Origin: Elusimicrobia bacterium HGW-Elusimicrobia-2
GTDB lineage: Bacteria > CG03
Length of the DNA: 38,166 nucleotides
Reading direction: 5' to 3'
Assembly (NCBI GenBank): GCA_002841685.1
Contig: PHAM01000010.1
Coordinates: forward strand, 1 to 38,166
Shown here: positions 1,894 to 28,600 of the stretch, piece after piece
Position numbering within the stretch: position 1 is the stretch's first letter
How the letters are laid out: each line of letters begins with the position of its first letter
Made by a program: the position numbers and the translations under genes
The notes under the pieces: model-generated
What the model saw: the letters and a program-made list of their open reading frames with translations, nothing else
Databases searched by the model: none
What the model was told of the DNA's origin: nothing

Positions 1894-2355
1894 ATGCCTG
1901 TATTTGTCAGCGATGCTAAACTCGGAGCGGAAAAACAAAAAGTTGTGGAAACGGCCCTTAAAATCCTGGCGGAACTCATAAAAGCGGACGGCTGTTCCTT
2001 TATGATGAAGCACGATGACACAGATGAGATCGAAATAGTCTCATCGGGAGAAGAGAGCGCTGAGGTTGCCGGTAAGAAACTGGGAATCCGCGTCAAGGTC
2101 GGCGAAAGGATAGCGGGGAGATCCGCCGCCGAAAAGAAGCCCTTCCTGATCGTCGGGGATATTTCTCACAACAAAAATTTCACCCATTTGAAAAAATATG
2201 AGGAAATATCATCCGGTTTGAGCGTGCCGGCAGTCAAAAACGGTAAAGTCGTAGGAGTGATCAACGCAAAAAAATCCACGTCAAAAGATATCCTGACGCA
2301 GGATAATCTGGACACCGCCAAAATCATAGCCGATATCATCGCCGCGGAATTTTAA
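1894..2355 (+). CDS. GAF-domain protein heading the motor-like operon
   Basis: A 153-residue soluble protein that consists of essentially one GAF domain: an N-terminal helix with ETALKILAELIKADGCSFMMK, the central GERIAGRSAAEKKPFLIVGDI segment near residues 72-92, and the closing LSVPAVKNGKVVGVINA strand near 111-127. GAF domains sense small ligands or mediate dimerisation. No output domain is attached, so it would act on a partner. The start is set by AGGAGG at 1880-1885, 8 nt upstream. It lies 10 nt before the FliF-FliG fusion and heads the operon, which suggests a regulatory input to that system, but nothing in the sequence shows the ligand. Confidence 0.8.
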   Translation: MPVFVSDAKLGAEKQKVVETALKILAELIKADGCSFMMKHDDTDEIEIVSSGEESAEVAGKKLGIRVKVGERIAGRSAAEKKPFLIVGDISHNKNFTHLKKYEEISSGLSVPAVKNGKVVGVINAKKSTSKDILTQDNLDTAKIIADIIAAEF

Positions 2356-2365
2356 GCCAGCAATA

Positions 2366-3730
2366 ATGAGATTGCGCTTCTTACCGGCATTTCTGGCTTT
2401 TTTTCTTCCGGCGCATTTATTGGCGGCTCAACAGGGCGCGGATATACAGACAAAGATCGCCATAGAAAAAAATCTGGAAGAGCGTCTTCACAGGATATTA
2501 ATCGAAATAATCGGTACAGATAAACTGATCATTGTCATAGATGTTCAGCTTGTCGGCAGCGGCGATGGTAACGATGAAGAAGACGAGGTCGTGCTGCCGG
2601 GCGTGCCGCTCCAGGAAAAACTCGGCCTGGGCATCGCCGGCCTGCAGCTGGGCGATACGGCGAAAAAAATAAAAAAACTTTCAGCGCAGATCATAGTGGA
2701 CAACAATCTTCCGGAAAGCATGGTCAAGGTCATCAAAGAGGTGTCGTCCGGCGTGCTCGGCATGGATGCGGAGAGGGGCGATATCCTCTCTATAGAGAGG
2801 ATCAATTTCAGAAAAAACCCGTTCAGCTGGTCCGATATTATATATCCTCCGCATTTATGGGGTCTTTTGTTCACGGCGTTCCTGGGCGCGGGACTGGCCG
2901 CTTTTTTCATTTTTGTCACGAAGACTTTTCCGGGTTCTGCTGAGGCGGTATCGCAGGCTGTGAGGGATTCGGGCGAGAAAAATGCCGGGCCCGCCGGCGG
3001 TTTTTCTTCCGCAGTGACGGCTTCGGCGTCGCTTTCTCCTGATTCCCGCGGTCGCGGTATATCCTCGGAAGAAAAAGGGCATTTTTCTTTTCTGACACCG
3101 GATATCGCGGATAAACTTATATTTCTGCTCAAAAAGGAAAAACCGGAAAATATCGCTCTTGTTTTGAATTACGCTCCCGGCTTATCAGGCGCCATCCTTT
3201 CCGGTCTGGACAGGAAACTCGCCGGCGAGGCCCTTGCCCGCCTGACTGATACGCGGTCTCTTCCGGGTGAAGAAGTTTCCAGGTGGGAGAACGAACTGAG
3301 GCAGAAACTCGATTTTTTTGTCGGCGGCAAAGAAATTGTCTCAGATATATTGGAGAATCTTTCCGATGAGGAGATGGATGAATATATCGCGTTTATAGGG
3401 GAGAAAGACCGCGCTTTCTCCGAAGAGCTCAGGAAATCCGTTTTCAGGCCGTCGCATCTTGCGGAAATGCGCGCTGAAAACCTGCTACTCGTCTACCAGC
3501 ATTTTAATCCTGTTTCATTTGCCGATGTGCTGAGGATTCTTCCTGAAGATATCAGGAAGAAGGCGCTCGGTAAATTCCCTGAAGGCATATCATCGCGGCT
3601 GAACGAGGAAATAGAGCTCGGCGCCGGTTCGGGGAAGGAAAAACTGCTCGCGGAGAAGAAGGCTCTTTCGCGCCTGGTGTCGCGCCTCAGAAGAGACGGC
3701 CTGCTGAAAACGGATTCAACGGAGGCTTAA
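2366..3730 (+). CDS. FliF-FliG fusion: periplasmic FliF RBM3-like domain, one membrane helix, cytoplasmic FliG-like domains
   Basis: A 454-residue inner-membrane protein. Residues 1-21 are a signal peptide. Residues 30-148 match the C-terminal periplasmic part of the MS-ring protein FliF: LEERLHRILIEIIGTDKL, then KKLSAQIIVDNN, then the AERGDILSIERINF strand. Residues 164-186 are a transmembrane helix equal to FliF TM2. After a Gly/Ser/Ala linker, residues 245-345 match FliG middle-domain repeats (EKPENIALVLNY) and 345-447 match the FliG C-terminal torque domain (FRPSHLAEM, DIRKKALGKF, SSRLNEEIELG, and the final KKALSRLVSRLRRDG helix). FliF RBM1, RBM2 and TM1 are missing, and the FliG EHPQ motif that binds FliM reads EKPE (258-261). 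With MotA and MotB directly downstream, it should be the torque-receiving partner of a stator. No Shine-Dalgarno sequence is evident at the start. Confidence 0.85.
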   Translation: MRLRFLPAFLAFFLPAHLLAAQQGADIQTKIAIEKNLEERLHRILIEIIGTDKLIIVIDVQLVGSGDGNDEEDEVVLPGVPLQEKLGLGIAGLQLGDTAKKIKKLSAQIIVDNNLPESMVKVIKEVSSGVLGMDAERGDILSIERINFRKNPFSWSDIIYPPHLWGLLFTAFLGAGLAAFFIFVTKTFPGSAEAVSQAVRDSGEKNAGPAGGFSSAVTASASLSPDSRGRGISSEEKGHFSFLTPDIADKLIFLLKKEKPENIALVLNYAPGLSGAILSGLDRKLAGEALARLTDTRSLPGEEVSRWENELRQKLDFFVGGKEIVSDILENLSDEEMDEYIAFIGEKDRAFSEELRKSVFRPSHLAEMRAENLLLVYQHFNPVSFADVLRILPEDIRKKALGKFPEGISSRLNEEIELGAGSGKEKLLAEKKALSRLVSRLRRDGLLKTDSTEA

Positions 3731-3735
3731 ATTTT

Positions 3736-4500
3736 ATGGATCTAATGACGATTCTGGGCCTTGCTATCGGCGGCGGCGCGATATACATTGTCATGCTCCA
3801 CGGGGATGTTGTCTATCTGCTGTTCAATCTGGACGCCGCCATTCTTGTTTTCGGCGGGACACTGGGCTCCACCATGATAGCTTTCCCTTTTAAAACCATT
3901 GTTCAGCTTCCGCGTGCCGTTAAGCTTATTTTTTTTCCGCCGCCGAAAATTAACATAGGCGGACTTATAAAGGATATGGCTCTTCTTTCGGCCGAGGCGA
4001 AAAAATCGGGGATTATGACGCTCTCGGACGGGAAGCTGAGGACGAAAGATCATTTTCTTTCGGAAAACATAAAAAAAATTGCGAACGGTGTGGAAAAAGA
4101 CATTATTGTCGAGAACATGCGGCAGGAAATCTTTTCCGTGGCCCAGAGGCATGAAAGGGCCTCGGGCGTTCTTCAGGCGATGGCCACTTTTTCTCCGATT
4201 TTCGGGTTGCTGGGTACGCTGATCGGCGTGATCCAGGTGCTAAAAAACCTGCAGGATCCCCAGAGCATGGGCGCCTCAATGGCCATCGCTGTGACGACGA
4301 CTTTTTACGGTATTTTCGGCGCGAATTTTCTTTTTTTGCCGGCATCGCTGAAGCTGGGGGAATATTCGAGAGAGGAAATACTCGCTAAGGAACTTATAGC
4401 CGAAGGGCTGGAATCTGTTCTCAACGGCGAGGTGCCGTCCATAACCACGCGCCGTCTTGACGCCTTCCTGTCAAAGCAGATCCGCGCGAAACAGCAATGA
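3736..4500 (+). CDS. motA: MotA-family stator protein
   Basis: A 254-residue MotA/PomA homologue, normally the five-subunit ring of an ion-driven 5:2 motor. TM1 and TM2 are at residues 3-22 and 31-51 (FNLDAAILVFGGTLGSTMIAFP). A cytoplasmic loop of about 90 residues follows, then TM3 near 146-168 with the family hallmark FSPIFGLLGTLIGVIQVL (Pro154) and TM4 near 178-202 (MAIAVTTTFYGIFGANFLFLP, Pro202). The cytoplasmic loop is the part that touches FliG in flagella. Length is in the usual range. It begins 5 nt after the fusion gene; a GGAGG lies about 10 nt before the ATG. The match is to the MotA rather than the ExbB/TolQ branch. Confidence 0.93.
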   Translation: MDLMTILGLAIGGGAIYIVMLHGDVVYLLFNLDAAILVFGGTLGSTMIAFPFKTIVQLPRAVKLIFFPPPKINIGGLIKDMALLSAEAKKSGIMTLSDGKLRTKDHFLSENIKKIANGVEKDIIVENMRQEIFSVAQRHERASGVLQAMATFSPIFGLLGTLIGVIQVLKNLQDPQSMGASMAIAVTTTFYGIFGANFLFLPASLKLGEYSREEILAKELIAEGLESVLNGEVPSITTRRLDAFLSKQIRAKQQ

Positions 4501-4570: not shown

Positions 4571-5239
4571 ATGATATTCCGTCCGATCAAACAAGCCGTG
4601 AAGGAACCTATCTGGCTGACTGTTTTCTGCGATATGACAACCAACCTGATGCTTTTTTTTCTGCTGCTGTACGGTTTCACAAGACTTTCCAAGAGCCGTC
4701 AGCAGGAAATGTATGCCGCGCTGAGCTCGGCGGGGAACAGGGAAAAAATCCTTCAGCGCAAGGCCGACGGCGTGCTGAAAAAATTCGCGGAAGACGAAAC
4801 AAGCTCTAATCTTAAACAAATGATGAGCAGGGGGGATCTGAACAAATACTCAAATCTTGAAACTTCCGAAAGCCAGATAAGGCTTGTTCTGAACACTCCC
4901 GTGCTTTTTGACTCGGGCCGCGCGGAATTGAAGCCCGAAACAAAAGCGTTGTTAAAGGGCATAGCAAGGACATTGTCAATGACATCTTACAAAATAGTGG
5001 TGGAGGGGCACACCGACAATGTGCCGATAAAAAGTCAGGAGTTCAGGTCAAACTGGGAACTTTCTGCGCGCAGAGCGGTGAATGTTATAAATTATTTTGT
5101 CAGCCGCGGCCTGCCGGCTGAGAGGTGCATAGCCGCGGGGTACGGCGAATATTTCCCGCGCTATTCCAATGATGATTTTGCGCAGAGGCAGAAAAACCGC
5201 AGGATAGAAATCGTGCTCCTCAAGGAGGATATAGAGTGA
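4571..5239 (+). CDS. motB: MotB-family stator protein with the ion-binding Asp
   Basis: A 222-residue protein of the usual MotB plan. One transmembrane helix (residues 14-36) carries W15-x5-D21 in WLTVFCDMTTNLMLFF, with Asp21 in the exact place of the proton-binding Asp of E. coli MotB. A linker of about 60 residues follows, then an OmpA-type peptidoglycan-binding domain (residues 100-220) with VLFDSG, VEGHTDNVPI, NWELSARRAVNV and KNRRIEIVL. It should pair with MotA to form the ion channel and anchor the stator to the cell wall. Only a weak AAGG precedes the ATG, and a palindromic repeat lies just upstream. It overlaps the second motB-like gene by 4 nt. Confidence 0.92.
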   Translation: MIFRPIKQAVKEPIWLTVFCDMTTNLMLFFLLLYGFTRLSKSRQQEMYAALSSAGNREKILQRKADGVLKKFAEDETSSNLKQMMSRGDLNKYSNLETSESQIRLVLNTPVLFDSGRAELKPETKALLKGIARTLSMTSYKIVVEGHTDNVPIKSQEFRSNWELSARRAVNVINYFVSRGLPAERCIAAGYGEYFPRYSNDDFAQRQKNRRIEIVLLKEDIE

Positions 5240-5913
5240 GCCGTTTCGTCACCGGCCGTCGGCATGGCGACAGAATGATCGGTGAAAAGAAAAAATTCGA
5301 TCCGTCATCGTGGAAAACGCCTTACGGCACGATGATGCTGCTGTGCATGATTTTTTTTATGATTCTTTATACCATATCGTTAAAGTCGGGCGTTGAATAC
5401 GAGGGGGTTATAGCGAAGCTGCAGTCCGGTGTTTCGCGTGAAAAGCACTCCGCCGGGGATGTTGAGACGGCCGAGAAAATGGAGGAAATATTCGGTTCCG
5501 AAAAAGGCGTCATTCAGATGGACGCGAGGAAAATAAAGATAATGCTGGACAGCCCCGTGCTTTTTGACTCGGGTTCCGCCGAACTTAAAGAAAGCAGTCG
5601 CGATGTCCTCTTTAAAGTTGCGCAGGTGCTCAGGGAAACGCGCAACAAGGTGAATGTCGCCGGCCACACGGACGACATTCCTTTCTGGGCTCTCCCCGGC
5701 GGTAATTTTGAGCTCTCAACTCTGCGTGCATTTAATGTGATCAGGTATTTTATAGATGTTGAGAAAATACCGCCGGCACGATTTTCCGCCTATGGTTTCG
5801 GCGAACACAGTCCTGTCGCGCCGAACACCGACAGCGCCGGCCGCAGCCGCAACAGGCGCATAGAGATCAGCATCCTGCGTGAAACGGCCCGAAGAGAAGG
5901 CGCGAAAACCTGA
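5236..5913 (+). CDS. Second MotB-like protein lacking the ion-binding Asp
   Basis: A 225-residue MotB paralogue starting with GTG, in a 4-nt overlap with motB and with AAGGAGG 7 nt upstream. The transmembrane helix WKTPYGTMMLLCMIFFMILY aligns without gaps to E. coli MotB [20 protein letters not shown], and the position of the essential Asp is Thr. The rest of the family plan is intact: VLFDSGSAELKESSRDVLF, VAGHTDDIPF, NFELSTLRAFNVIRYF and SRNRRIEISIL in the OmpA-type peptidoglycan-binding domain (about residues 92-218). The protein can probably bind peptidoglycan but should not conduct ions alone. A role as the second, non-conducting B subunit of a mixed stator, or as a passive anchor, is inference. 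Confidence 0.88.
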   Translation: MSRFVTGRRHGDRMIGEKKKFDPSSWKTPYGTMMLLCMIFFMILYTISLKSGVEYEGVIAKLQSGVSREKHSAGDVETAEKMEEIFGSEKGVIQMDARKIKIMLDSPVLFDSGSAELKESSRDVLFKVAQVLRETRNKVNVAGHTDDIPFWALPGGNFELSTLRAFNVIRYFIDVEKIPPARFSAYGFGEHSPVAPNTDSAGRSRNRRIEISILRETARREGAKT

Positions 5914-5914
5914 T

Positions 5915-6781
5915 ATGAGGATTTTCTTTATTTCCGCCGCCGTGTTTTTGGCCTCCGTTTCCTTATGCCCAGGGGCTGATGATATAGGCGCGCTGTATAA
6001 TTCCGCCGTGAAAAATTTCAGCGCGGGCAAATACAGCGACGCGATCAGGTGCTGGCAGAGGATACTTGAGATAGATCCCGAACAGGTGCCCCCGCATAAA
6101 ATGATAGAATTCACGAGAGGCAAGATAAAGCAGGAGCTCGCGCCGCGGGTGCAGGCCTTTGAAAAAAATATGCAGGCCGGAAAATGGTTCATCGCCCATG
6201 ACGCCGCGTGCAGGGTGCTGGATATCGACCCGGCATATCCGGGCCTCGCCGAAAAAAAAGACAAACTCGGTGAAATAGCCGGTATCGTCGAAGATTGTTC
6301 GGGCTCCGGCAAGGTGCCGGTCATGCTGAGAAAAAGCGTCAACGCTTATTTTGATAAAAATCCCGCGCTTATGTTTGACGCGGCCATATATGCCGAACAG
6401 TTAAATAAGGATATTGCCCTCGGCAAGAAAATTTCCGCACTGCTATTTTACATGGAAAAAAAATACCCCGAGGCAAGATCCCGCGTTAAGCTGATAGCGG
6501 GCATGGATCTGATGAAACAGATGCTCCAGAGCTCGCTTGATTCTATTTACAAAGCCGATTACACCGGCGCGATCATGTTTTGTGACAGGATTCTCGCGCT
6601 TGATGAAAACAGCACTCTCGCCCTTATGAGAAAAGGTTCGGCGTATTACGCGCTCAACAATTTTAATGAGGCGCGTAAAAACTGGCAGCTGGCGCTTAAA
6701 ACAGATCCTAAAAATAAAGATGTGAAAAAATTTCTGAATCTGCTGGATAGAAAAAAGAAAAAAAACGGCGGAAAAAAATAG
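5915..6781 (+). CDS. Secreted TPR-repeat protein
   Basis: A 288-residue protein with a signal peptide (MRIFFISAAVFLASVSLCPG, then ADD) followed by tetratricopeptide-like helices: NSAVKNFSAGKYSDAIRCW near the start, a divergent middle part, and two clear C-terminal repeats (DSIYKADYTGAIMFCDRIL and YYALNNFNEARKNWQLALK) before a Lys-rich tail. I chose ATG 5915, which starts 1 nt after the stop of the second motB-like gene and gives a normal signal peptide; an upstream GTG at 5879 in the same frame would add 12 charged residues. TPR proteins are scaffolds. Here a periplasmic scaffold between the stator domains and the outer membrane is plausible but not proven. Confidence 0.8.
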   Translation: MRIFFISAAVFLASVSLCPGADDIGALYNSAVKNFSAGKYSDAIRCWQRILEIDPEQVPPHKMIEFTRGKIKQELAPRVQAFEKNMQAGKWFIAHDAACRVLDIDPAYPGLAEKKDKLGEIAGIVEDCSGSGKVPVMLRKSVNAYFDKNPALMFDAAIYAEQLNKDIALGKKISALLFYMEKKYPEARSRVKLIAGMDLMKQMLQSSLDSIYKADYTGAIMFCDRILALDENSTLALMRKGSAYYALNNFNEARKNWQLALKTDPKNKDVKKFLNLLDRKKKKNGGKK

Positions 6782-6792
6782 AGGAGGTTTTA

Positions 6793-7107
6793 ATGAGCGA
6801 ATTCAAGATCATTACCTGCATAGTTGAGAGGGGGAAGGCCGATAAGATCGTAGAAAAAATATCCTCGTCAACGGGTTACGGCGTGACGAGTTATTACGCC
6901 CGCGGCACGGGCGTGCGGGAAAAGATTGGTTTCATCGGCCGTCTGATAGAGCCGGAGAAGGAAGTTTTTACGACGGTTGTGCCCGCTGAAAAAGCGGATG
7001 AAGTGTTCGATAAGATCGTGGAGCTGGCGCATCTGAAGGAACCCGGCAAGGGTTTCGCCTTCATCCAGGATGTTGATCGGGCGGTGGGGTTTTACCAAAG
7101 GGACTGA
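6793..7107 (+). CDS. PII-like signalling protein
   Basis: A 104-residue protein with the ferredoxin-like fold pattern of the GlnB/PII superfamily: an N-terminal strand FKIITCIVERGKADKIVEKI, a short T-loop region around YARGTGVREKIGFIG, and the second half with VFTTVVPAEKADEVFDKIVELA followed by PGKGFAFIQDV. The long T-loop and uridylylated Tyr motif of classical GlnB are not recognisable, so it belongs to a divergent PII-like group that may bind a nucleotide or another small effector. AGGAGG lies 5 nt before the start. It sits inside the motor-like operon, suggesting control of that system by a metabolite, which is inference. Confidence 0.75.
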   Translation: MSEFKIITCIVERGKADKIVEKISSSTGYGVTSYYARGTGVREKIGFIGRLIEPEKEVFTTVVPAEKADEVFDKIVELAHLKEPGKGFAFIQDVDRAVGFYQRD

Positions 7108-13623: not shown

Positions 13624-14462
13624 AAAATTTAGAGAAGAAAATAGAATTGCTGAAAGATTATTTTTCAAAAGAGCAGTCGGTGATTATGGCCTATGTTTTT
13701 GGTTCTTATGCCAAAGAGAGAGTTATGTCTGAATCGGATTTTGATGTTGCTGTTTATTTCAAGCCGCAAGACAGGGAAATAGAATACGAGAAAGATAGGG
13801 AATATCCGGAAGAGGACAGAATCTGGAGCGATGTTGAAAGAATTGTCGAGGTAAACACGGACTTTGTTGTTATGAACAGATGCCCCGCCACCCTCGCTCT
13901 GGAAATTCTTGAGATAGGGAAAAAGATTATTGTCAAAGATGAAGAGCTCCGTCTTGAATTCTATCTCATCACAAGTTCCGTCGCGATGGACTTTATGGAA
14001 TTTGCGAGGGATTTCTATGCGATCAGGCAGCGTTCCGCATCATTAAGCGAACGGGATAAACACAATTTAATGAGGAGAAAAGTTTTTCTGGAAAATGAAA
14101 TAGGCGAAATTGATTATTTTAAAGATTTGGATTTTAAAACTTACAGTACGGATAGGAACAAAAGGAGAATTGTAGAGAGGTGGATTGAAGTTATAGTTGC
14201 CGCATCAATTGATATTGCTAAAATAATGCTCGCCTCGGAAAAAAAAGAAATTCCCAAAACTTATAATGATACGCTGAAAATGTTCGGGTGGATGGTTGGA
14301 TTTGAAGGGGACTTAAATGAGAAATTTTCTAAATTTGCGGATTTAAGAAATATCTTAGCGCATGAATATCTGGATATTTTGTTTGTGAGAATAAAAAAAT
14401 TCATTGACGAAGCGAAGCCGATTTACAGGGAATTGATTGATTTTGTGGATAAAAAAATATGA
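13620..14462 (+). CDS. Fused MntA-like nucleotidyltransferase and HepT-like HEPN protein, copy 1
   Basis: A 280-residue protein combining both halves of a type VII toxin-antitoxin system. The N-terminal MNT nucleotidyltransferase has G28-S29 followed by ten residues and D40-x-D42 (GSYAKERVMSESDFD), the GSX10DXD motif of the antitoxin MntA. The C-terminal HEPN domain has R243-N-I-L-A-H248-E-Y250, the RX4HXY motif of the RNase toxin HepT. In known systems MntA adds AMP to the HepT Tyr and blocks the RNase; here both are one chain, so modification could be intramolecular. The start ATG overlaps the stop of the surface-protein gene by 3 nt. A paralogue of the same length lies at 15043. Other possibility: a self-regulating defence RNase rather than a plasmid-type addiction module. 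Confidence 0.8.
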   Translation: MKNLEKKIELLKDYFSKEQSVIMAYVFGSYAKERVMSESDFDVAVYFKPQDREIEYEKDREYPEEDRIWSDVERIVEVNTDFVVMNRCPATLALEILEIGKKIIVKDEELRLEFYLITSSVAMDFMEFARDFYAIRQRSASLSERDKHNLMRRKVFLENEIGEIDYFKDLDFKTYSTDRNKRRIVERWIEVIVAASIDIAKIMLASEKKEIPKTYNDTLKMFGWMVGFEGDLNEKFSKFADLRNILAHEYLDILFVRIKKFIDEAKPIYRELIDFVDKKI

Positions 14463-14475
14463 AAAGGATAATAGG

Positions 14476-14742
14476 ATGATATCAAAAACTGATAAAAATG
14501 TAATTATAGAATGCGCAAAAAAGTATAGTGTAGGAGAAATCATTCTATTCGGTTCTTCCGTTGATAGTGAAACTGCAAATGATATTGATATCGGCATAAA
14601 AGGAATTCAACCGGAGTTGTTCTTTCAGTTTTATGGTGAATTATCGAGAAATTTATCTAAAGAAGTTGATGTAATAGACCTGGATGAAAAAAATTCTTTC
14701 AATAAGCTGGTAGAAAGAGATGGAGTAAAATTATATGGATAG
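14476..14742 (+). CDS. Stand-alone MNT nucleotidyltransferase (antitoxin-like)
   Basis: An 88-residue minimal nucleotidyltransferase with the core FGSSVDSETANDIDIGI: G26-S27 and, after eight residues instead of ten, D36-x-D38. The C-terminal strand VDVIDLDE carries the third acidic position. I chose ATG 14476, which follows an AAAGGA; an upstream in-frame TTG would run into the preceding coding region. Its stop overlaps the start of a broken ORF where the HEPN partner of such genes normally sits. Confidence 0.75.
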   Translation: MISKTDKNVIIECAKKYSVGEIILFGSSVDSETANDIDIGIKGIQPELFFQFYGELSRNLSKEVDVIDLDEKNSFNKLVERDGVKLYG

Positions 14743-14929
14743 TTTGATAGAAAAAATCAACGCTGAAATGGAAAACATATTTGTCGTGTATTCGGCATTT
14801 GAAAAAGAAATAGCCCGGATTATTCACAATGTATGTCATTCCGAAGGAGTTTTTACGACTGAGAAATCTAAGATTCCTCACTTCGTTCGGAATGACAGAC
14901 CGTTGTTTTTGTCCTCGGAGTATGAATAA
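14735..14929 (+). pseudogene. Remnant of a HEPN-type partner gene, interrupted by a palindromic repeat
   Basis: The frame starts with ATG inside the end of the MNT gene, the usual arrangement for a HEPN partner. The first 32 residues (MDSLIEKINAEMENIFVVYS...) look like the first helix of such a protein. From 14834 the sequence is a 64-bp inverted-repeat element, translated as CHSEGVFTTEKSKIPHFVRNDR, and the frame ends soon after. No HEPN active-site motif remains. The assignment to HEPN rests on position and on the first helix only. Confidence 0.5.
14834..14897. repeat. 64-bp MITE-like inverted-repeat element
   Basis: TGTCATTCCGAA at the left end and TTCGGAATGACA at the right end are perfect 12-bp terminal inverted repeats. 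The interior holds AATCTAAGATT. It resembles the widely dispersed TGTCATTC palindromes found in many bacterial genomes; a related half element lies at 16664-16691. No target-site duplication is obvious. Confidence 0.8.
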
Positions 14930-15042
14930 TGCAGGATAGGTAATTTTCTTAAAGGATTATGATAAAGAAACGTAAATTTTTAACTGCTTGCCCCGCTGGC
15001 TCCGCCGCAGGCGATAACGGTGACAATGGAACCGATAAAGCC

Positions 15043-15885: not shown

Positions 15886-16232
15886 AAAATTTGAATGAAT
15901 TCCTAACAGAAAAAGAAAAACGAGCGGTGGAAGAATTGAAACAAGGGCTTAAAAAACTTTACGGGGATAATCTCGCGCGTTTAATTCTCTACGGTTCGAA
16001 AGCGAGGGGCGATTCCGAAGACGGTTCGGATATTGATATTTTAGTGGCGCTGAAAAAAATGGGTTTGCGATTTGACGAAATTGACCGAATAGGCGAAATT
16101 CGCGCCCCGATTTGTCTTAAGTACAACATAACTCTTTCCGTTATGCCTGTGTTGGAGGAGTGGATTGACGCAGATTATAAGACAATATTTGTTCACAATG
16201 TTTTAAATGAGGGAGTGAGGATAAATATATGA
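15882..16232 (+). CDS. MNT nucleotidyltransferase of a two-gene MNT-HEPN module
   Basis: A 116-residue nucleotidyltransferase with LYGSKARGDSEDGSDIDILV: G38-S39 and, after ten residues, D50-x-D52. The C-terminal part (ITLSVMPVLEEWIDADYKTIF) supplies the last strand of the fold. It starts within the stop codon of the preceding gene and overlaps the following HEPN gene by 4 nt, the classic order for an antitoxin-type MNT before its HEPN partner. Confidence 0.85.
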   Translation: MKNLNEFLTEKEKRAVEELKQGLKKLYGDNLARLILYGSKARGDSEDGSDIDILVALKKMGLRFDEIDRIGEIRAPICLKYNITLSVMPVLEEWIDADYKTIFVHNVLNEGVRINI

Positions 16233-16621
16233 CGGCGCAGAACGAAATAAAAGGATTAATTGCAAAGGCACAGAGGAGACTGAATTCTGCCGGAGATGAA
16301 TTTCAGAAAGAGAATTATGATTTTGCGGTTTCCCACGCATACTATTCAATGTTCTACTGCGCGGAAGCGCTGCTTCTTACTAAAGAGTTGAGATTTTCAA
16401 AACATTCCGCCGTTCATTCCGCTTTTGGAGAACATTTTGCTAAAAACGGTGAAATCGATCCGAAATTACACAGGAAGTTGCTGGATGCGTTTGAAAAAAG
16501 AAGTAATGGTGACTATGAATACATGATTGAAATAACAAAAGAAGAAGCGGAGAAAATTCTAAGAGACGCAGAGTTTTTTGTAGGCGAAATAAAGAAGAAA
16601 TTAAATGAAAAAAATTTGTAA
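16229..16621 (+). CDS. HEPN-domain protein, partner of the upstream MNT
   Basis: A 130-residue all-alpha protein of the HEPN family: RLNSAGDEFQKENYDFAVSHAYYSMFYCAEALL (residues 17-49) followed by the conserved RSNGDYEY near residues 91-98 and a long C-terminal helix. The sequence is of the common MNT-partner type. A strict RX4-6H motif is not visible, so RNase activity is less certain than for the two fused proteins. It overlaps the MNT gene by 4 nt, and its last 17 nt overlap the start of the giant surface-protein gene. Confidence 0.8.
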   Translation: MTAQNEIKGLIAKAQRRLNSAGDEFQKENYDFAVSHAYYSMFYCAEALLLTKELRFSKHSAVHSAFGEHFAKNGEIDPKLHRKLLDAFEKRSNGDYEYMIEITKEEAEKILRDAEFFVGEIKKKLNEKNL

Positions 16622-19600
16622 ATCTTTGCCTGGTGTAGCAAGCGTAATAGCGGCAATCTCACTTGTCATTCTGAGCGGAGCGAAGAATCTCGCCTTCGCC
16701 GCGACGAGCGATTCAATAACTTATTACGTAACGGTGAGTTCACCTCCGGCGGCAGTGACGGATTTGGCGGGGGCGACGGGAACGAACGAAGGCGAGATTG
16801 ATTTAACGTGGTCTGCCCCCGGTGACGACGGGCTGACGGGGACAATAAGTTCTGGTGAGTTTCGAATAAAATTTTCTTCAAAAACGGATGCGTCTGATAA
16901 AGGCGGCTGGGATTACACGAGTAATTATGTAAGCAGTTCATGCGCAAACATTATTCCGTCTTCGTCATACGGCTACACAATTACCGGCCTTGTCGCGGGG
17001 GCTACTTACTATTTTAGGATTTGGACAGCGGATGAAGTACCGAACTGGTCAACTCTTTCAAACGGAGCGACCGCGCAGGCGCAGGTTGCTCAGGGCGGGA
17101 TTTGGAAGAGTGTTCAGGGCGGGAACTGGGGTGCGGGCGCAACTTGGGATAAAGGAAACGTTCCTAATTCACTAAGTGTTGTTGAGATTTCCCACACCGT
17201 AACATTTGATATGTTTGATGCGGAATGTTCCAGCGTTACTGTTTTTAATTTTGGGACTTTGCAGTTTGACGGGGCGGTTTCCACAAGAACCCTGACGGTA
17301 GCAGGAAACCTTGAAATAATGAACGGCGGAAATTTTCTGATGCCGCCGAATACCGGTTACATTTCAACGCTGAAGATTAAATGCGACACTGACGGAGAGC
17401 ATGGGATTATCGTAAATAACGGCGGGATATTTGATGTTCGGGGAAATACCACAACAACGCCGTCCACGAGAAACTGCTTGATTGCATCAGACAATCCATC
17501 CGCAAAAACATACATCCAAAACCTTTCACAGACCGAAGCTAATTTCAATATGTATTATGTGGAAGTAAGCAGCGTGGGAGTGAATGCTGATGGAAAATGG
17601 GGAATAACTTTTTATGGTTCACCGATAAGAGGAAAAATAAATTATTGCAGCATTCATAATGGGTATTATGGTATTTACATTTGGGGTAGTTCCAACAATA
17701 CAATAAGCAATAACAATTGTTATTCAAATTCTTTTAGTGGCATTTACCTTAACGGCAGTTCCAACAACATACTCAACAATAACAGTTGCTACTCAAATAC
17801 TCAAAGTGGCATTTACCTTGGCAACAGTTCCAACAACAACACACTCAGCAATAACAGTTGTTACTCAAATACTCAACCTGGCATTTTGCTTAACGCCAGT
17901 TCCAATAACAACACGGTGAGCAATAATAATTGTTATTCTAATGCTGTGGACGGTATTTATCTTGACACAGTTGAGGACAATACACTGAATAATAACAATT
18001 GTTACTCAAATTCTGGAAATGGCATTGATGTATTCACTTGTGTTGACAATATCCTGGGCAATAATAATTGTTATTCTAATTTGAACGGTATTCGTTTTAA
18101 AGACAGTGAGAACAATACACTGAATAATAACAGTTGCTACTCAAATTCCCAATATGGCATTTTAGCATCAGCCGATGATATTCTCAATAATTTAATTGTA
18201 AATTGCAATTTAGGGAAAGATGGAATTAACACGAGTGGAGATATTGGTTATTATAATACTGGTGGTGGTGCTCCAAAACTAATCTTAAAAAATTGTAATT
18301 TATATTCCACAACGAAAGTTAATCCGACAAATATGTACGACGGGTCTCTTGTTTCGTATAATCAGGACGGGACACAGGGTACAACAAAAATATGGGGTGA
18401 TTATAAAATTGAAAACGGCGAAACGGGGAAATTTAATTATGCTGACTTGCTTTATGCCTCAACAGCTACATTGCCGAATTCTACTTTGAAAGGTTCAGGT
18501 TCAATAACATATCCGACGACAAATGATAGTCAAACGCTGACTGAATTTTGGGAAGTAAAATATAACGGTTCAAGTTTTGATGTCCGCAGAGGAACGTGGG
18601 CGGTTCTGGATTATGATGGTGATGCGACAGTCGGTTCGCCATATTCAGGTTCACCGAGAGGCGTAGGTTTTACAGTGAGCGGCACATTTCAACTGAATGA
18701 TGCATTTTATTTTGTGACAATTTCATCGTCGGGTGATCAAAATACTCAGAAGATAATTGAGTTCAGTAGTTCAACAATCGGCACAAAATTGAGTGTTGAT
18801 TCCGGCGGAACGATTCAGATGATAGGAACACTGGGTTATCCCACTATATCCACGGCTTCGGCGAGCGGCGTGTATTACGGTTTTGCGTCTTCCGGAACAA
18901 TGGAAGCGAGTAACTATAAGTTTTTCAATCTCAATTCGGAAGGCCTGAAGTTTCAGTCCGCCGGTGCTGATGTTGTGGATTTGAGCAGCGGAACTTTTGA
19001 TAACATTCAGGACAGCGCCGGTGATTCAAGTTATATCTGCGTGTTATATCTGACATCCGCCGCTACATGGTACAACTGCACATTCAACGACACTCCGGGG
19101 ACGGCGGATTATAATGTTAAGGCGGACGGATCGGGAGTAAACTGGACATTCAGAGATTATGACGGCGTAAAAAGCGGCGTAACTTACAGTTCCGCGACAA
19201 ACGGAGCTGTTATATACTGGGTTGTTCCGGACGCGACCCCGCCGACGGTCGGGATAATAACCCCGACAGATGATTCCTATGTGAACAGTTTGTCCCAGAT
19301 AGAGGGAACTTCAGATGATGATGTTAGCGTGAGCACGGTGATGGTAAGTATGCAGAGATTGAGCGACAAATGGTACTGGTCGCCGGGGCCGCAATGGGCG
19401 GTTGGAGAGACGTGGAATGGGGTAAACAGTTTTGTCGCTTCAACGTGGACGCTGACTTCACTGCCGGGCTGGGTGGACGGTTCAAGTTATACGGTCGTTG
19501 CAAAAGCGCAGGATACAAGCGGCAACTGGTCGCAGGTTTATTCAACGGTGACGTTTACTTATGATAATTCCGCGCCGGTATCATCGGCGACATATCCTGT

Positions 19601-22600
19601 AAACGGCGGGCATTATGTTGATGTGGACTCAATCACGGGGACGGCCACGGACGATGTTTCGGGAGTGAATGAGGTCAACATCCAATTAAAGAGGCAGGCG
19701 GATAATAAATACTGGGACGCCGTGGGTTCATTGTGGACATTCAGCGCGATATGGAGCACCGCCACAGAAACGACGAACTGGAGTTTTAACGCAATCCCGG
19801 TCATCTGGTCAACCGGCAGCTATAGTGTTCAATCAAGGGCGAAGGATGCTGCGGGAAATTGGGAGACCCCGACAAGTTCAACAACATTTAGTATTGGATA
19901 TTCAACTCCGGCCGCGCCGACGGGATTCGCGGGGACAGCACAGTCGGCAGTGTCAATAAAATGGTCATGGAATGATGTAAATGAAGAAGACGGATATTAT
20001 GTCAGGGATTCATCGGGGGCTCTGAAGCAAACTCTTTCCGCGAATGTGACTTCGTGGTTGGAAACGACGGGGTTAACGGTCAATACCTCACATCAAAGAT
20101 ACGTGGAAGCTTATAATGCGAGCGGTTCAAGTAAATGCGCGGCAATAATCAGATACACATTGGCAACTACTCATTCGGGATTATATTTTAGCGGCGGCGG
20201 GGGTTCAAGTGTGACTTTTGCATGGAACGTAAATACTAATCCGTCATGGACGAGATGGGGAATATATAAATCAACGGACGGTTTTATAACGAGCACGGCA
20301 ACTCTAAAGAATTTTGCGGCGAATTATACAAGCAGTACTTATACTGATACCGGGTTGACTGACTTAACAACCTACTGGTATAAGGTACAGGCGTTTAATG
20401 GTGACGGGATAGGTTCCACTTTCAATAATATCATATCAACGAAAACTCCGGACGAAACTCCTCCGACAGTCGGAATAACAAAACCGGCTTCAACTTATGT
20501 CAATAGTTTAGGGCAGATTGAGGGAACCGCGGCGGATAACGGGGGAATAAACTATGTTAATGTTGAAATCAGAAGAAACTCGGATGGTTATTATTTTGAT
20601 TCAGCGACATGGGGAACGCAGACATGGCTGGGGGTGAGTGTTTTTACGAGCTCATGGACATATTCGGATCCTGACCTCTCCTGGATTAACAGGTCAAGTT
20701 ACACCATAACAGCGCGGGCCTGTGACACAGCTCTTATATATTCCGCGACGACAACAGTGACGTTTACTTATGATATAGATTTGCCGACTTCGGCGGTGAC
20801 ACATCCTGCCGAGAGCGGCAAGTACGATTCTATCACGCAGATAACGGGAACTTCCGCGGAGGCGACATCCGCGATAAATGCGGTAGATATAAGTGTAAGG
20901 AGAACATTAGGCAACGAATATTGGGACGGGTCATCATGGGTCGACGGCCAGCAATGGCTTACGGCACTGGCTGCTGACGGCACTTACGACACTCTGACGG
21001 AGAACTGGAAATTTGATATAGAGTATTCTACAGACGTGTTTTCATCGACGGGGCAATATGTGGTTTCATCGCGGGCGCAGGATTCCGCTCTGAACTATGA
21101 GCCCTTAATATCGTCAGTGACATTTGAAATAGTGTTTTCAACACCTCCGTCAGTCGGTGGAATTCAGGGAGATGCCGTTTCAACAGACAGCATTAACTGG
21201 TCGTGGAGCGATATAGTGGAGGAAGACAATTACAGGATTAAGAGCGCCACAGGGGGGATTTTGAAAGACGCTCTTCTCGCGGACACGACATTCTGGCTGG
21301 AAACCGGACTGACCGCAAATACGACGTACCAAAGATATATTGAGGCGTATAATACAATCGGTTTCAGCGCGGCCGCGACGTCTATCATTTATACATTGGC
21401 GAATGCGCCTTCGGGTTCTGATTTTAGCGCAGTATATAAAACAAGCGCAACGGTGACGTGGTCGTCAAACGGCAACCCTGCGTTGACAGGATATATTGTG
21501 GAGTGCGATTCAACGACGCCGTATGATTTTGTGTCTGTTGATTTAACAAGCGGCTGGATAGATGTAACGACGCACACATTCACAGGGCTGACAAACGATA
21601 CGAGCTATTATTTTAAAGTGAAGGCGAGAAACGGCGGTTTAACGGAAACAGGATTTGATTCAATAATATCTACAGTTACGGTTTATGATGATAAGGTTGT
21701 TCCCACTTTAGGAATAACCAAACCGCTTGACGGTTCGTATACAAATAGTGTGCCTCAAATACAGGGCACATGTGCCGACGATGTGGCGGTTTCGACGGCT
21801 GCGATAAGAATTTTTAATCAGATAAACGCGAATTACTGGAATAACAATACGACGATTTGGGATGCTACGCTAACGCCTGAAACTGCCTGGTTCGCGCCAA
21901 CGCTTTCGGCCGGCGGGACATTCTGGTGGTTTAATTCTCCGGGCTGGGCGGACACAAAGGTTTATGAAATCAGCGCAAAGGCGAAGGATACGGCCGGCAA
22001 CTGGTCAGCGGTTTTTTCAACGGCTGTTTTTACCTACGATGTCACGAAGCCGGCTTCTGCCGTGAGCGTTCCGGAAAACGGAATGAAACTCGCCACATTG
22101 ACAAGTCTCGGCGGCACGGCAGCGGATGCAACATCCGGAATTTCGCAGGTTAAAATTCAAATCACGGATCTGACGCAGGGAGCGACATACTGGAACGGCA
22201 GCGGTTGGGTGGAAACTTCCGCGTGGCTCCCCGTAAGCGGGGTCGACCCCTGGTCGTACAGCTTTGTTGACGGCGACTGGACTGAAGGGCATGTTTATAA
22301 AATACAGTCTCAGGCGACGGACACCGCGGCCAATGTGGAGTCCGCCGTAAACGCGAGTACATTCACCTTCAGCAATGCCGGAATCAAACTGCAGGTTATT
22401 CTGCCAGGCGAGACGGCGACTTCCGGTATGTCTCCGGGGAAGAGCGGCACGCCGACCGCGCAGATGGCCGGAGTGGCTTTCAGCGTAACTGTCAACGCCG
22501 TTGACGATTTGTGGAATCTTTCGGTGAATGCGATTGCGACAGCGCAGGTAACGACAAGCGACCCGAACGATACGGAGCCGTCATCGTCGGCGCTGGTAAG

Positions 22601-25600
22601 CGGAACGAAAGTTTTTTCTGTAACGATGGTGACCGCGGGAACAGCGACGATAACGGCAAGTGACACTGATGGAACGCCTCTTTTGCCGGAGACAAGTTCT
22701 GAAGTTAATGTAAATGCTAATGCTCCGTCGAAACTTCAGGTTATTGTTCCCGGAGAGGCCGCCGCCGCAGGCACGGGCGGTGGAAAAATGGGTACGCCCG
22801 ATGTTCAATATGCGGGAGCTGTTTTCACGGTGACGATCCACGCCTGCGATGCATATTGGAATGTTGTTTCAACGACTGCGACGGTAAATGTAACGACAAG
22901 CGATAATGCTGATACCGATCCCGGTAATATAGTTCTTCCGGCGGGCACGAATAATGTTAATGTAACGCTCGTGACACCGAGTACGAGTACGTTTATAACA
23001 GCCACGGCTGCCAGTTTTGCGGACGGTGTGTCGGTTTATATTGTGGTAAGTTCTACGGATGTGGTGCCGCCGACGGTGGGAATAACTGCACCAGCAGTCC
23101 TTTACACCAATAGCGTAATAAAAATAGCGGGTACGGCGAACGATAATGTGAAAGTTAGTTCTGTAACATTGTGGGTAGAAAGATTGAGCGATAATTTTGT
23201 CTGGACCGGCGCAGGCTGGAGCGGAGCAGGCCTATGGTTACCCGCGGACAATGTTTATGTCTCATCTTGGTCATACACAACCGCTGTTTCGTGGGATGAC
23301 GGTATCTCTTATGATATTATCGCGAAAGCAAAAGACAGCAACGATAACTGGTCAACGGTTTATGACACGGTGACGTTTACTTATGATATTTCTCTGCCGA
23401 CTTCGACGGTAACATATCCTGTGGAGAGCGGTCAGTATACGGATATTACGAGCATTACGGGAACTTCTACGGACACCGTTTCGGGAGTGTCGGTGACAAA
23501 AATAAAAATATTCGCATTGTCCGGGCCGTACATAGGCGCGTGGTGGCAGGATGGTTCAGGATGGCAGGGAGCTGAATTCTGGAATGACGCATCCGGTACA
23601 GCTTCGTGGAGTTTTGACACCTCAATGATAGGATGGTCGACAGGGACTTATAATGTTCAGCCGAAAGTTCAGGATGCGGCAGGCAACTGGGAAGTGCCGG
23701 TAAGTTCGGTGACATTTGAAATCATTCCTTCCACGCCTCCGGCCCCGGCGGGATTTCATGGCGAAGGGCCGGAGCTTACGTCTATGTGGTGGCGCTGGAC
23801 GGATAATTCAGACAATGAAGACGGTTTCAGAGTTAAGAGCGATACGGGGGGAATACTTGCGGATTTACTCCCGGGCGCAACCGAGTGGCATGAAGACGGC
23901 TTGAGTCCCAACACATCATATTTCAGATACGTTGAAGCGTATAACGTCAGCGGTTCAAGCGCGAGTGAAATTGCGATGAAATCCACTTTGCCGTATCAGC
24001 CGGCTTCATTACAGATTACGCAGGTATCATCAACAACGGTTACTATAACATGGTCCGCAAGCGGCAACCCCTCGTTTACAAAGTATATTGTTGAATGCGA
24101 CGGGACAAATCCCTATGATTTTGAACCGCCCGATAACGGTTACGGTAATTCCGTATTGACAACGACACACACTTTCACAAATTTAACGGCCGCGACGACA
24201 TATTATTTTCAAATAGGGGCTATGAGCTTGGACGGAGATGTAATAGTTTATTCCGCAACTGTTTCGACAATGACAGCGGATGCGGAAAGTTTTGTCGCTT
24301 CATGGAGTTCCCCTGAAATGGAATTAACCATGGATACAGCCTGGGGTGACTATGATAATGATGGAGACTTGGATCAACTCGTAGGAAATGCTGTGGGGGT
24401 AAACCGTATCTACAGAAATGAAGGAGACGGGACATTCACAATGGCCTGGAGTTCTCCTGAAAGTGAAGATACCCTGAGTGTGGCCTGGGGGGATTATGAC
24501 AATGACGGTGACTTAGACCAATTAGCGGGGAATGACGGAAGTAACAGGGTATATAGAAATAACGGCGATGGAACATTTACAATGATGTGGGTTTCGGTGG
24601 AAACGGAAAAAACATATTCAGTAGAATGGGGTGATTACGACAACGACGGCTATCTTGACCATGTAGCGGGGAATTATGGAGTTAACAGGGTTTACAGAAA
24701 TAACGGTGATGGGACATTTACGTTAGCATGGAGTTCAGCAGAATCAGATGACCACCGGAGTGTTAAATGGGGCGACTACGACAATGACGGCGACCTTGAC
24801 CAGTTGGTCGGAATTAACGGAGCGCAGCGCACCAGAGTATACAGAAATAATGGCGACGGGACATTTACATTGACATGGGAATCGACAGTAACTGACGCTA
24901 CCGTGAGTGTTGCGTGGGGCGATTATGACAACGATGGTGATTTAGATCAACTGGCAGGAAATGAGAATGAGGCAAATAAGGTATATAGAAACGATGGAGG
25001 CGGAACGTTTACACTGGCGTGGACTTCAGCAGAAACAGAAAATACAGGAAGTGTTTCATGGGGTGATTACGACAATGACGGTGATTTAGACCAGTTAGTT
25101 GGTAATGTTGGTCAAACAAACCGGATATACAGGAACGATGGAGATGACACATTTATTGCTGTCTGGAACTCGGCAGAGACAGAAGATACTCGTAGTGTTA
25201 CATGGGGTGATTATGACAATGATGGTGATTTAGACCAGTTAGCAGGGAATTATGGTCAAACAAACCGCATTTACAAATCTCTTGAAGCGGATTCAGGGAA
25301 TGCTAATACGGCGCCGGCAGCTCCGTCGGCTGGATTTTCGGCAAATTATAATTCAGCAACGGAAGAAATTGAGTTCCGGTGGGACAAATCAACAGATGCG
25401 GAAACTCCGCAGAACGGGCTTTATTATGCGATTAACATTGATACGGGCGGGATAAATTACACACTTTGGGACGAAGTGATAATGGGTGAAAAGCATACAA
25501 CAGCGAACTTTGGCAAATATATGCACAGTTATATATCCTCAACAACGGTACAACCAGGTTTTAATCTTAAAATAACAACAGCGTTGCCAACAGGGGTTAC

Positions 25601-28600
25601 GTATTATTGGCATGCGCACACGATTGACGGGCAAATGAGGGCGAGTTTATCCTCTACGGAGCAGGAATTTTATTTCAGCGGAGCAGTTGTCTCAACGCCT
25701 TCGGCGCCGACGGTTTTTTCGGGAAATTTTAGTCAGGCGGGAGGGGCGGTATGTGACAGTGGAATAAATGATTCCGGCAAAAGTATTGTAATTGACGAAG
25801 TGTCTTTCGGAGGGCCGTATATTTTCACCGCAGGGACATTGTCCACTGGTGCAGTTACAGGGATAATAATCAAATACGATAGTTACGGCAATGTTGTAGC
25901 ATCGTTCACAATTGCTAATGCGGATATTGATGAAATTAAGCTGGATAGCAGCCAGAATGTAGTTATAACAGGGCGATTAGTTGGGGGAACTAAGCCCGAT
26001 GATTTTTTAATAGAGAAATTTAGTTCGAAACTGGGTTATATTAATTCAGTAGTTTACGATGGTGGTAATAACGACAGGCCATCTGCTTTGGCAATTGATT
26101 CATTGGATAATATCATAGTTGGCGGATATAGTTGGAGTGGAACTAATAATTGGAATATCAGAAAGTACGATTCAAGCTTGACAACTCTTTTAGCAAATAA
26201 AACATATGATTCAGGGGGGGATGATGTCGTACATAGCATTGCTGTTGATGCAGGGGATAATATCGTGGTTACCGGAGTGACACATCCTAATTCTACTTTT
26301 GATTGGTATACAGTGAAGTATAATTCCGATTTTACAAGTACTCTTGGTTCGGCACTCTTTGATGGCGGTGGCACGGATTATCCGTATGGCGTACAAGTTA
26401 ATTCGGACAATAGTATTTTTGTAACGGGTTTTTCAAACAACGGAGTTACTAATGATATCCTAACAATAAAATATTCGTCGGATCTTTCTAGCGTGTTATC
26501 TTCAGCAACATTTGATAATGGGGGGGATGATGCTGGGTATTCGATAACCAGCAGCAGCAAGAATATTTTTGTTGGGGGTTATACTTATAATGGGGTTGAT
26601 AAGGATTGTATCGCGCTGGCATACAATTTTAATCTCGCTTTAGTTTCATCCTATACGTATCAGAGTGGTTTTGATGATACATGTTATGGAATAGATATTG
26701 ACAGTAGCTCATTTGTGTATTTAACAGGTTTTTCAAGCAACGGAAGCGATTATGATTTAAGAGTAATCAAAACATTTTTTTCCAGTATTGAAATAGCTGT
26801 TCCGGTGGCGCCTACGGTTTTTTCAGGCACGGCTCAAAGCGCCTCGGCTATCATGTGGACATGGACGGTCAATTCTTCCAATGAAGACGGTTTTTATCTC
26901 AAGAATTCGTCTGATGCGGTTGTGCAGACGCTTCCCGCGGGCGCGACTTTTTATCTTGAAACGGGGCTCGGTGTGAACAGCGAAACTTACAGATATCTGG
27001 TTGTGTATAACGGCGCGGGGGAGAATTCTTCAATACCGGCGGCGATTTACACTCTTGCGAACACCCCCGCGTCTTTCGGAGTAACTGTTTCTTCTTACTC
27101 GGCGCTATTAGACTGGACAGCCAACGGCAATCCCGCCGGCACGGACTATGAGATAGAGTGGTCAACGGCTCCGGATTTTTCCGGCGCCGATTACGACACG
27201 ACGACGGATGTGTCTTATCAGATAACGCCCCTCACCGGTGAGACAACTTATTATATCAGGATAAGAGCCGTTAACGTTGACGGCTTTTCAACGGCTTTCT
27301 CTGTGAAACAGGTTTTTACCGCGGAGCCGGATCTGACGGCGCCCGCCGCGGTGACCGCTTTTACCGCCGAAACGGTGAATATAAAAGGAGCGGTGAAACT
27401 TTCCTGGACAAATCCCGGCGACGACGGCACCATAGGAACGATAATAGGAGGCGCGCAGATAATAAGTTATGAGACGGGGGCTGTGACAACGTTTATGCCG
27501 GATATCGTAAAAAATATAATCCCCGGCACAACGGAAGCGCTGACGGTTACGGGCCTTACCCCCGGCAGCGTTTACACATTTTATATAAAAATAAAAGACG
27601 AAGTGGGCAATGAGTCCAGTGAGGTGTCGGCCGTTGTCTCAGCCGGAGCCCAGCCTGTACTGCAGGTTTCCGGCATAACAAGTCCCATAACCGCGGGTGC
27701 CAGCAGCGATTTTACGGTTGAGGCGAAGAACGCTCTTGGCGCAACAGACACGGGCTACACGGGAACAATAACTTTTGAAAGCAAAATAATGGACGGGAAA
27801 GAGGCCGGCTTTCCCGCTATGCCTGTCGGAACTTTGCCTGTTGATTATAGTTTTACAAGCGCCGATAACGGTATTCATGTCTTTTCCGGCCGCGCTGTTT
27901 TCAGAGATAATGGAGAAATATATAGCTGTTATGTAAGGACGACGGATAAAGGAGATGCTCTTATAACGGGCCAGCAGGTTGTGATGGTTTCACCGAGGGA
28001 TTTTATTTCGGGCATCGTCACGCAAAAGGACGGGACGCGCCTGTCCGGTGTTTATGTTGAGGCATACAGCACGGGTTTATCCACGGGTGTGCCGTTTACG
28101 ACGATAAACGGCAGTTATACGGTTATAAACCTTGCTATAGGCACCTACACGGTGCGCGCCACATGGACGGACGCGGGCGGCCTTGAATCCTCGGCGGAAA
28201 AGCAGGCGCCAAACGGCACAGCGGCCTTTAATTTTACTCTCGGTATTAATTTTGATCTGTCTATTGTGCAGGGTATGGTTTTGGGCCTGAGCGCCTCAAG
28301 CATACGATCAGCGGCAGGCCTTATAATGCCGCGGGCCACTTCGGAATACGCCTTTGTCGAGATAAGCGCGGGCAGAAAAGTGATGAGAATACCCGTCGCC
28401 GCCGACGGCTCTTTCCGCATGGGGAATCTGCTCCCGGGCAGATACAGCGCAAGGGCCTGGGACGGGAGCAGGTATTCAAACAGCGAAACGCTCATTCTTT
28501 CCGGCGGCGCGCAGGTGACGGTGAATTTTACGTTCCCTGTGTCTGCGCAGGTGTATTGCTGGCCGAATCCTTTTGTTGAATTGAAAACAAGTGAGACGGG

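Follow-up and report, generated by a model that had tools for sequence, protein, structure and literature searches.

The window (the whole stretch of DNA that was analysed, 38,166 nucleotides; contig C48 of the 1.78-Mb, 95.97% complete assembly G000 of Elusimicrobia bacterium HGW-Elusimicrobia-2) carries a gene encoding a genuine fusion of two flagellar rotor proteins, composed of a signal peptide-like start, the RBM3 domain of FliF, one transmembrane (TM) helix, and the FliG_M and FliG_C domains of FliG. This gene lies in a tight run with MotA- and MotB-type stator genes, and paralogous fusions adjoin genes related to components of the type IX secretion system (T9SS). The predicted FliFG rotor, derived from or related to that of the flagellum, probably works with MotAB stators to power a T9SS-like secretion or surface-motility machine. 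Beyond the claims of an earlier, sequence-only reading of the window, the analyses revealed two more paralogous fusions in the same genome, on contigs C79 and C85 (hence C79-type and C85-type), and a setting of type IX secretion genes that suggests a likely task for the motor.

Table 1. Features of the window (aa, amino acids; positions are those of the window).
Feature	Position	Strand	Basis or remark
GAF-domain protein, possible regulator	1894..2355	+	Pfam GAF_2 E 2.5e-13; 10 bases 5' of the fusion
FliF(RBM3-TM2)-FliG(M-C) fusion, putative rotor subunit	2366..3730	+	ATG 2366, stop 3730, 454 aa; Pfam, profiles, model
Signal-peptide-like N-terminus, residues ~1-22, where RBM1/RBM2/TM1 would be	2366..2431	+	read by eye
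RBM3-like FliF domain, residues 28-146; short loop replaces collar insert	2447..2803	+	Pfam, profile, model
Single TM helix, FliF TM2 equivalent, residues 163-187	2852..2926	+	model helix; position by homology
EKPE, residues 258-261, at the FliM-binding EHPQ site	3137..3148	+	alignment
Gly407 at the FliG R281 position (MotA E98 partner): lost	3584..3586	+	alignment
Glu414-Glu415 at the FliG D288/D289 positions (MotA R90 partners): kept	3605..3610	+	alignment
MotA-like stator A subunit; Lys89 at R90 (4000-4002), Ser97 at E98 (4024-4026); channel prolines kept	3736..4500	+	MotA_ExbB E 4.1e-23
MotB-like stator B subunit 1; channel Asp21 (4631-4633) kept, OmpA-type peptidoglycan-binding domain	4571..5239	+	Pfam, alignment
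MotB-like stator B subunit 2; Thr32 (5329-5331) at the channel Asp position	5236..5913	+	Pfam, alignment
Secreted-looking TPR protein	5879..6781	+	TPR families; homology to the TPR region of the PorV-TPR proteins next to paralogous fusions
P-II-like protein, same gene run	6793..7107	+	Pfam P-II E 4.4e-9
4085-aa Fn3-repeat protein with T9SS-type C-terminal domain, candidate secreted cargo/adhesin	16605..28862	+	

In Pfam searches of the fusion, FliG_M exceeded its cut-off (E 4.8e-8), and FliG_C (E 1.4e-4, 22.6 bits, cut-off 23.3; 24.3 bits in a separate search) and YscJ_FliF_C (profile positions 95-147, E 2.7e-4, 21.8 bits, cut-off 23.8) just missed theirs. Among 20 homologues of the fusion, at E <= 0.01, FliG_M and FliG_C were each found in all 20, YscJ_FliF_C in 9 and FliG_N in 6, and the RBM1-2 family YscJ_FliF was absent from the 10 families tallied. 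A 20-row profile of the fusions aligned with residues 109-322 of Escherichia coli FliG (E 1.8e-16, 208 columns) and with residues 374-439 only of E. coli FliF (hhalign probability 81.5); against the PDB, the best matches to FliG and FliF had E-values of 7.7e-57 and 3.9e-5, respectively. An AlphaFold model of modest confidence (mean pLDDT 63.6, pTM 0.36, nine sequences) shows a helix-strand-strand-helix-strand succession in the RBM3-like region, which is the order of a ring-building motif, and a Foldseek search with this model retrieved single FliG domains (target-normalised TM-score 0.80-0.83, ~2 A, weak E-values of 0.1-0.7) and FliF chains of RBM3/S-ring size (mostly 0.50-0.59). Most of FliF is gone: from the RBM1-RBM2-RBM3 arrangement between two TM helices, only RBM3, RGD-bearing end included, and TM2 were found. 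The proposal of the sequence-only reading that a signal peptide (recognised by eye) stands in place of RBM1, RBM2 and TM1 agrees with the match restricted to FliF 374-439 and with the untallied YscJ_FliF family.

Among named relatives, the closest match came from 'Elusimicrobia bacterium CG03_land_8_20_14_0_80_50_18' (unclassified Elusimicrobiota at NCBI), with 79% identity across the fusion. FliG_C was matched in 12 of the 16 genomes of the phylum, always as part of a long fusion frame, and a profile search added a fusion cut by a contig end in G008; domain and profile searches returned no fusion in G004 (63% complete), G014 (66%) and G015 (84%). Most carrier genomes encode two or three paralogues. 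In G003, the window-type copy (L078:3282-4648, G003:C150) is split into frames of 101 and 337 aa, by either a frameshift or an assembly error. Three candidates were rejected: (i) the FliG_C match of G022 was named an MgtE-type protein (L051:8524-9855) from its layout and from the resemblance of MgtE_N to FliG; (ii) G052 carries ordinary, separate FliF and FliG plus a FliH-like gene; and (iii) the FliG-like protein of G054 (265 aa) has no FliF part. True fusions are encoded in UBP8/Margulisiibacteriota (L010 and L011); they have no MotAB next to them, lack the acidic residue pair described below, and were kept apart as far relatives. In L010, L011 and L098 of the same groups, the fusion follows a TPR protein whose end looks, by eye, like a SPOR-type domain, and the acidic pair is replaced by Gln-Phe.

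In a phylogenetic tree, one branch (98/92) separates the fusions from 12 flagellar FliGs. The fusion lineage lies outside the flagellar sequences sampled, and the tree, being unrooted, fits an origin within the flagellum as well as one outside it. Switch and export-gate genes of a flagellum were not detected: FliMN_C (FliM/FliN) and the FlhA export gate were each found in none of the 16 phylum genomes, a separate search of G000 for FliMN_C being negative as well, and the flagellate control G032 was positive for both. Two readings would assign the fusion to a flagellum, decayed or reduced. According to the first, the genes are functionless leftovers of an MS-ring, switch and stator; this would explain why only RBM3, TM2, FliG and the stators remain, as well as the split copy in G003, but it is at odds with the multiple paralogues of most carriers, their open frames and strongly conserved acidic pair, and the placement of the fusions, present across the phylum, on a branch of their own. 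We consider it very improbable. It is similarly implausible that the genes belong to a working flagellum or type III export device in reduced form, whose other genes have diverged beyond recognition or fall outside the assemblies: metagenome-assembled genomes are incomplete (95.97% completeness for G000), but FlhA and FliMN_C are undetected in 16/16 phylum genomes when the control is positive, and RBM1 and RBM2, the holders of the export gate, are missing.

The residues that contact FliM and MotA were compared in 27 fusions, drawn from the phylum and from two close outsiders (34 candidate rows, from which a fragment and a pair of upstream TPR proteins were excluded and four far relatives set aside). 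The same alignment held 12 flagellar FliGs (13 picked, two wrong ORFs, L015 and L021, removed, and E. coli added). At the four positions of the FliM-binding motif EHPQ, the fusions retain E125 in 22, H126 in none, P127 in 14 and Q128 in one case, versus 11, 11, 12 and 12 of the 12 flagellar proteins, and the reading EKPE proposed earlier for the window protein was confirmed. The known FliG-MotA contacts, as given in a passage of PMC12505986, pair MotA R90 with D288-D289, and E98 with R281. The D288 and D289 positions are acidic in 26/27 and 24/27 fusions, respectively, ranking second and fourth by entropy among 90 FliG_C columns, and the K264 position is basic (K/R) in 21/27. By contrast with the flagellar set, in which K264, R281, D288, D289 and R297 are retained in 12/12, R281 is kept in no fusion and the R297 position is basic in none. 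The far fusion-like set (UBP8, Margulisiibacteriota, G058 and G054) has for the most part lost the acidic pair.

On the side of the stator, the R90 position is basic in 17 of 21 partner MotAs, and the E98 position is acidic in 0/14 partners of window- and C85-type fusions and in 6/7 of the C79-type, where MotA keeps E98 although R281 of the fusion is gone. One salt bridge (D288/D289-R90) would thus be held and the other (R281-E98) dropped; in the window and C85 types this is true of both partners. The claim that selection had kept the stator contact and discarded the switch contact needs to be narrowed accordingly: the acidic half facing MotA R90 is conserved and EHPQ has eroded, whereas the R281-E98 half is lost in all 27 fusions. 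The same division applies to the charges to which the sequence-only reading had pointed. The EE of RLNEEIE aligns with D288/D289 of E. coli FliG, DIRKK is not among the named stator-contact positions, and the profile alignment shows conservation of the acidic pair, not of the charged ridge as a whole, which is lost across orthologues at R281 and R297. These comparisons support the view that the acidic stator contact has been held by selection while the FliM motif eroded. Since the motif is eroded and FliMN_C was detected in none of the 16 phylum genomes, a CheY-FliM switch is unlikely, as had been predicted; no fliM or fliN homologue was found that could pair with the fusion in these genomes.

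The genes of the window operon follow in the order GAF, fusion, MotA, MotB, second MotB, TPR and P-II-like, with gaps of 10, 5, 70, -4, -35 and 11 bases, and the next gap is 3 bases. A scan of the window for promoters and terminators gave 6 promoter-like sites versus 6.0 in shuffles, i.e., no excess. The MotA-like gene matches NCBIfam models of flagellar motor proteins (E 2e-47), under their cut-offs. In the 21 partner MotAs, P173, T209 and P222 are kept in every case, and the channel Asp is present in 21/21 first MotB copies (the residue of L005 was read individually). The features of a MotAB-type stator, a torque-loop MotA with channel residues and a MotB with Asp and an OmpA-type domain, are therefore in place, with NCBIfam scores below the cut-offs. 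The second MotB carries Thr, Asn or Ser at the channel Asp in 12 of 13 copies (window 5236-5913, L053, L060, L062, L064, L066, L075, L076, L078, L082, L085 and L008), and that of L007 retains Asp. It is possible that the stator is asymmetric, containing one B1 and one B2 subunit. No MotA adjoins the fusions G005a and G006b. In the C79-type locus of G000, a gene for a 1282-aa, cytoplasmic-looking coiled-coil protein (L004:2225-6073, G000:C79) is inserted between the fusion and its MotA; matches to it were found in L012/L079, L067, L070 and L077, and genes encoding ~1300 aa occupy the same place in L059 and L061.

The orthologous fusions of L006/L076 and L078 are also preceded by the GAF gene, and the C85-type operon (fusion, MotA, MotB) of G001 and G002 leads directly into a histidine kinase gene. 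In another reading, the rotor and stator act as a load or surface sensor, reporting contact with the wall or a surface to GAF, P-II and histidine kinase proteins and doing no mechanical work on a translocon. The GAF and P-II genes flanking the window operon and the kinase gene following the C85-type operon fit such a role, but the channel residues of MotA and the Asp of the first MotB are conserved (21/21 each) as in a working ion motor, and GAF and P-II are not found beside the other paralogues seen. We therefore hold a pure sensor to be unlikely.

Genes upstream of the paralogous fusions point to the T9SS. In 11/11 testable C79-type or L007/L008 loci, a PorV-type barrel protein with a TPR tail is encoded directly upstream of the fusion (5 of the 11 trained the profile). 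Among six such neighbours tested, five exceed the curated cut-off of the NCBIfam PorV/PorQ model (111-146 vs 90 bits), and the neighbour profile matches solved PorV (6h3i_F) with an E-value of 4.5e-13. The upstream neighbour in G008 is PorV-like too (by eye), and PorV-like barrel-TPR genes upstream of the C85 fusion of G000 score 61 and 26 bits, under the cut-off of 90. The window's own fusion is preceded by the GAF gene and not by PorV, which speaks against a role as a power unit; the window-type fusions have GAF upstream in G000, G002 and G003 and a PorV/PorP-like gene in G009 (45 bits), the others having neither. The TPR protein of the window operon is similar to the PorV-TPR protein of L005 (phmmer E 5e-36). 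Small genes with T9SS sorting domains are located upstream of the C85 fusion (CHU_C, 30.2 bits vs cut-off 27; L005:4710), and a TIGR04183 sorting domain lies beside the fusion in L060 (25.1 bits vs cut-off 23).

A candidate substrate is encoded in the window itself. The last 170 aa of the 4085-aa protein resemble the C-terminal ends of the PorZ and PorU models (E 6.3e-9 and 7e-8, respectively), with scores far under the whole-protein cut-offs, and the protein also matches fn3 and CHU_C (0.001). The window contains another giant Fn3-repeat protein (10729-13623), followed by repeated pairs of nucleotidyltransferase/HEPN-like genes (13620-16621, by eye), possibly of the toxin-antitoxin type.

The main alternative to a motor for secretion is that FliFG-MotAB constitutes a gliding or adhesin motor independent of secretion, T9SS-like genes being co-resident because the T9SS exports adhesins. 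The coiled-coil protein of the C79-type operon could then serve as a track or scaffold, and giant Fn3 proteins with T9SS-type ends as adhesins. It is the location of a PorV-family gene immediately 5' of the fusion in all of the 11 testable loci which argues that the motor is tied to the translocon rather than to the cargo alone, and we regard independent gliding as rather unlikely, albeit the strongest competitor.

The translocon family was recovered almost throughout the phylum. The SprA model TIGR04189 matched 15/16 genomes at E <= 0.001 (the exception being G004), none reaching the curated cut-off; the SprA-family protein of G000 has 1713 aa (E 8.5e-44, 149 bits vs cut-off 200), and the model was matched by all 10 aligned phylum members. 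In a PDB search, the 10-row SprA profile retrieved solved Flavobacterium johnsoniae SprA only (6h3i/6h3j, E 1.9e-22), and the G000 protein as a single sequence gave no match. The family is also present in G099-G102 (weakly in G101 and G102, E ~1e-6). A PorU-type C25 peptidase domain was found in only 5/16 phylum genomes, including G000, and in none of G099-G102, which speaks against a full T9SS-like machine. Three features of a T9SS are thus represented, i.e., (i) the SprA/Sov translocon, (ii) PorV and (iii) C-terminal sorting domains, with SprA and the PorV of G000 below the cut-offs.

A SprA match was obtained in 17 of 18 genomes in which a fusion was found, the remaining one being G058 with a fusion-like gene. 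This co-occurrence is inflated by shared ancestry, and gene adjacency in divergent paralogues together with synteny is the stronger evidence. In sixteen genomes SprA was matched but the searches returned no fusion (G014, G015, G022, G032, G054 and 11 more), so SprA does not need the fusion motor everywhere. As for synteny, the order histidine kinase, 120-aa gene, MotB2-like, GT2, ComF and SprA is shared by G000:C93 and G003:C77. In G000, contig C85 stops after MotB and C93 begins inside the histidine kinase; combined with the direct passage from the operon into the kinase gene in G001 and G002, this places SprA, by inference, about six genes from the C85 operon. In G002, MotB2-like and GT2 genes follow the kinase, the chain is then broken by DUF3108, and SprA lies on a separate contig.

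In Bacteroidota, the power unit of the T9SS and of gliding is GldL/GldM, as described in passages of PMC9127263 and PMC11205867, and this is the place proposed here for FliFG-MotAB. GldM was matched in 0/61 and 0/39 and GldL_N in 0/31 genomes searched; no positive control was matched, even in genomes with strong SprA, the intended GldM control (the phylum of G022) giving no match and hence no control, so that the absence of GldL/GldM is unproven. Strong SprA without detectable GldM/GldL_N is also seen in G016, G018, G021, G022, G024 and G060, which means either that divergent motors escape the models or that these genomes, too, rely on other motors.

Taken together, the fusion may form an inner-membrane ring with RBM3 in the periplasm, one TM helix, and a torque ring of FliG in the cytoplasm. 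MotA/MotB stators would push on the acidic residues that FliG_C retains, by way of MotA R90 or the Lys in its place. With no FliM/FliN and no R281-E98 contact, the motor is expected to have no CheY-type switch and probably turns one way. On the periplasmic side, TPR and PorV-TPR proteins could link it to a SprA-PorV type translocon, as gene linkage and co-occurrence suggest, and rotation might drive the export of proteins with T9SS-type C-terminal domains, perhaps also gliding over surfaces. More tentatively, somewhat short of an even chance, a T9SS-like system would be run by a FliF-FliG ring and MotAB and not by GldL/GldM, with a possible B heterodimer holding one channel Asp, and the fusion lineage could be a sister group to the flagellar rotor, itself non-flagellar, in which an earlier use of the module persists. 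Searches of the openly licensed literature retrieved nothing on a FliF-FliG/MotAB motor paired with a T9SS.

If the proposed role is correct, the torque generator of the flagellum is portable: the rotor, the stator and the contact between them were kept, the switch, export gate and inner MS-ring domains were dropped, and the output was passed to another machine. This would be a third pairing of an ion-driven motor with an envelope machine, beside the flagellum and the GldLM-driven T9SS. Two points could also be tested on it as a natural case: which of the FliG-MotA salt bridges torque requires (D288/D289-R90 being kept and R281-E98 lost), and whether a stator can work with a single channel Asp.

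Four known systems offer a comparison. The AglRQS gliding motor of Myxococcus comprises one A and two B-type subunits and represents a non-flagellar use of stators, in both of which it resembles the genes described here; it is not known to have a FliF/FliG rotor. Unlike in AglRQS, a motor named in passages of PMC12505986 and PMC12204202, the A subunit of the window keeps FliG-contact residues. In engineered FliF-FliG fusions of Vibrio (MS-ring, PDB 8z4d/8z4g; PMC11481574), the two proteins are likewise joined and a ring is reportedly still made; there FliF is full-length, whereas here the fusion is natural, trimmed, and found in a genome without detected FliM/FliN or FlhA. With the GldL/GldM-driven T9SS of Flavobacterium and Porphyromonas, the system shares the SprA-family translocon, the PorV/PorQ family, C-terminal sorting domains and the expectation of an ion-driven inner-membrane motor, but its motor genes are FliFG-MotAB, GldL/GldM being undetected in searches lacking a positive control; T9SS-like secretion would, in addition, extend outside the Fibrobacteres-Bacteroidetes-Chlorobi group, in which a passage of PMC11205867 places the T9SS. 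The system differs from the MS-ring/C-ring and MotAB motor of E. coli in that FliF is joined to FliG in a single protein that has lost RBM1, RBM2, TM1, EHPQ and R281; in addition, FliM/FliN and FlhA were not detected, the second MotB has no Asp, and the neighbours are of PorV/SprA type. The likeness to this motor consists in the FliF RBM3-TM2 part, FliG_M and FliG_C, the MotA and MotB homologues, and the acidic contact of FliG facing a basic contact of MotA.
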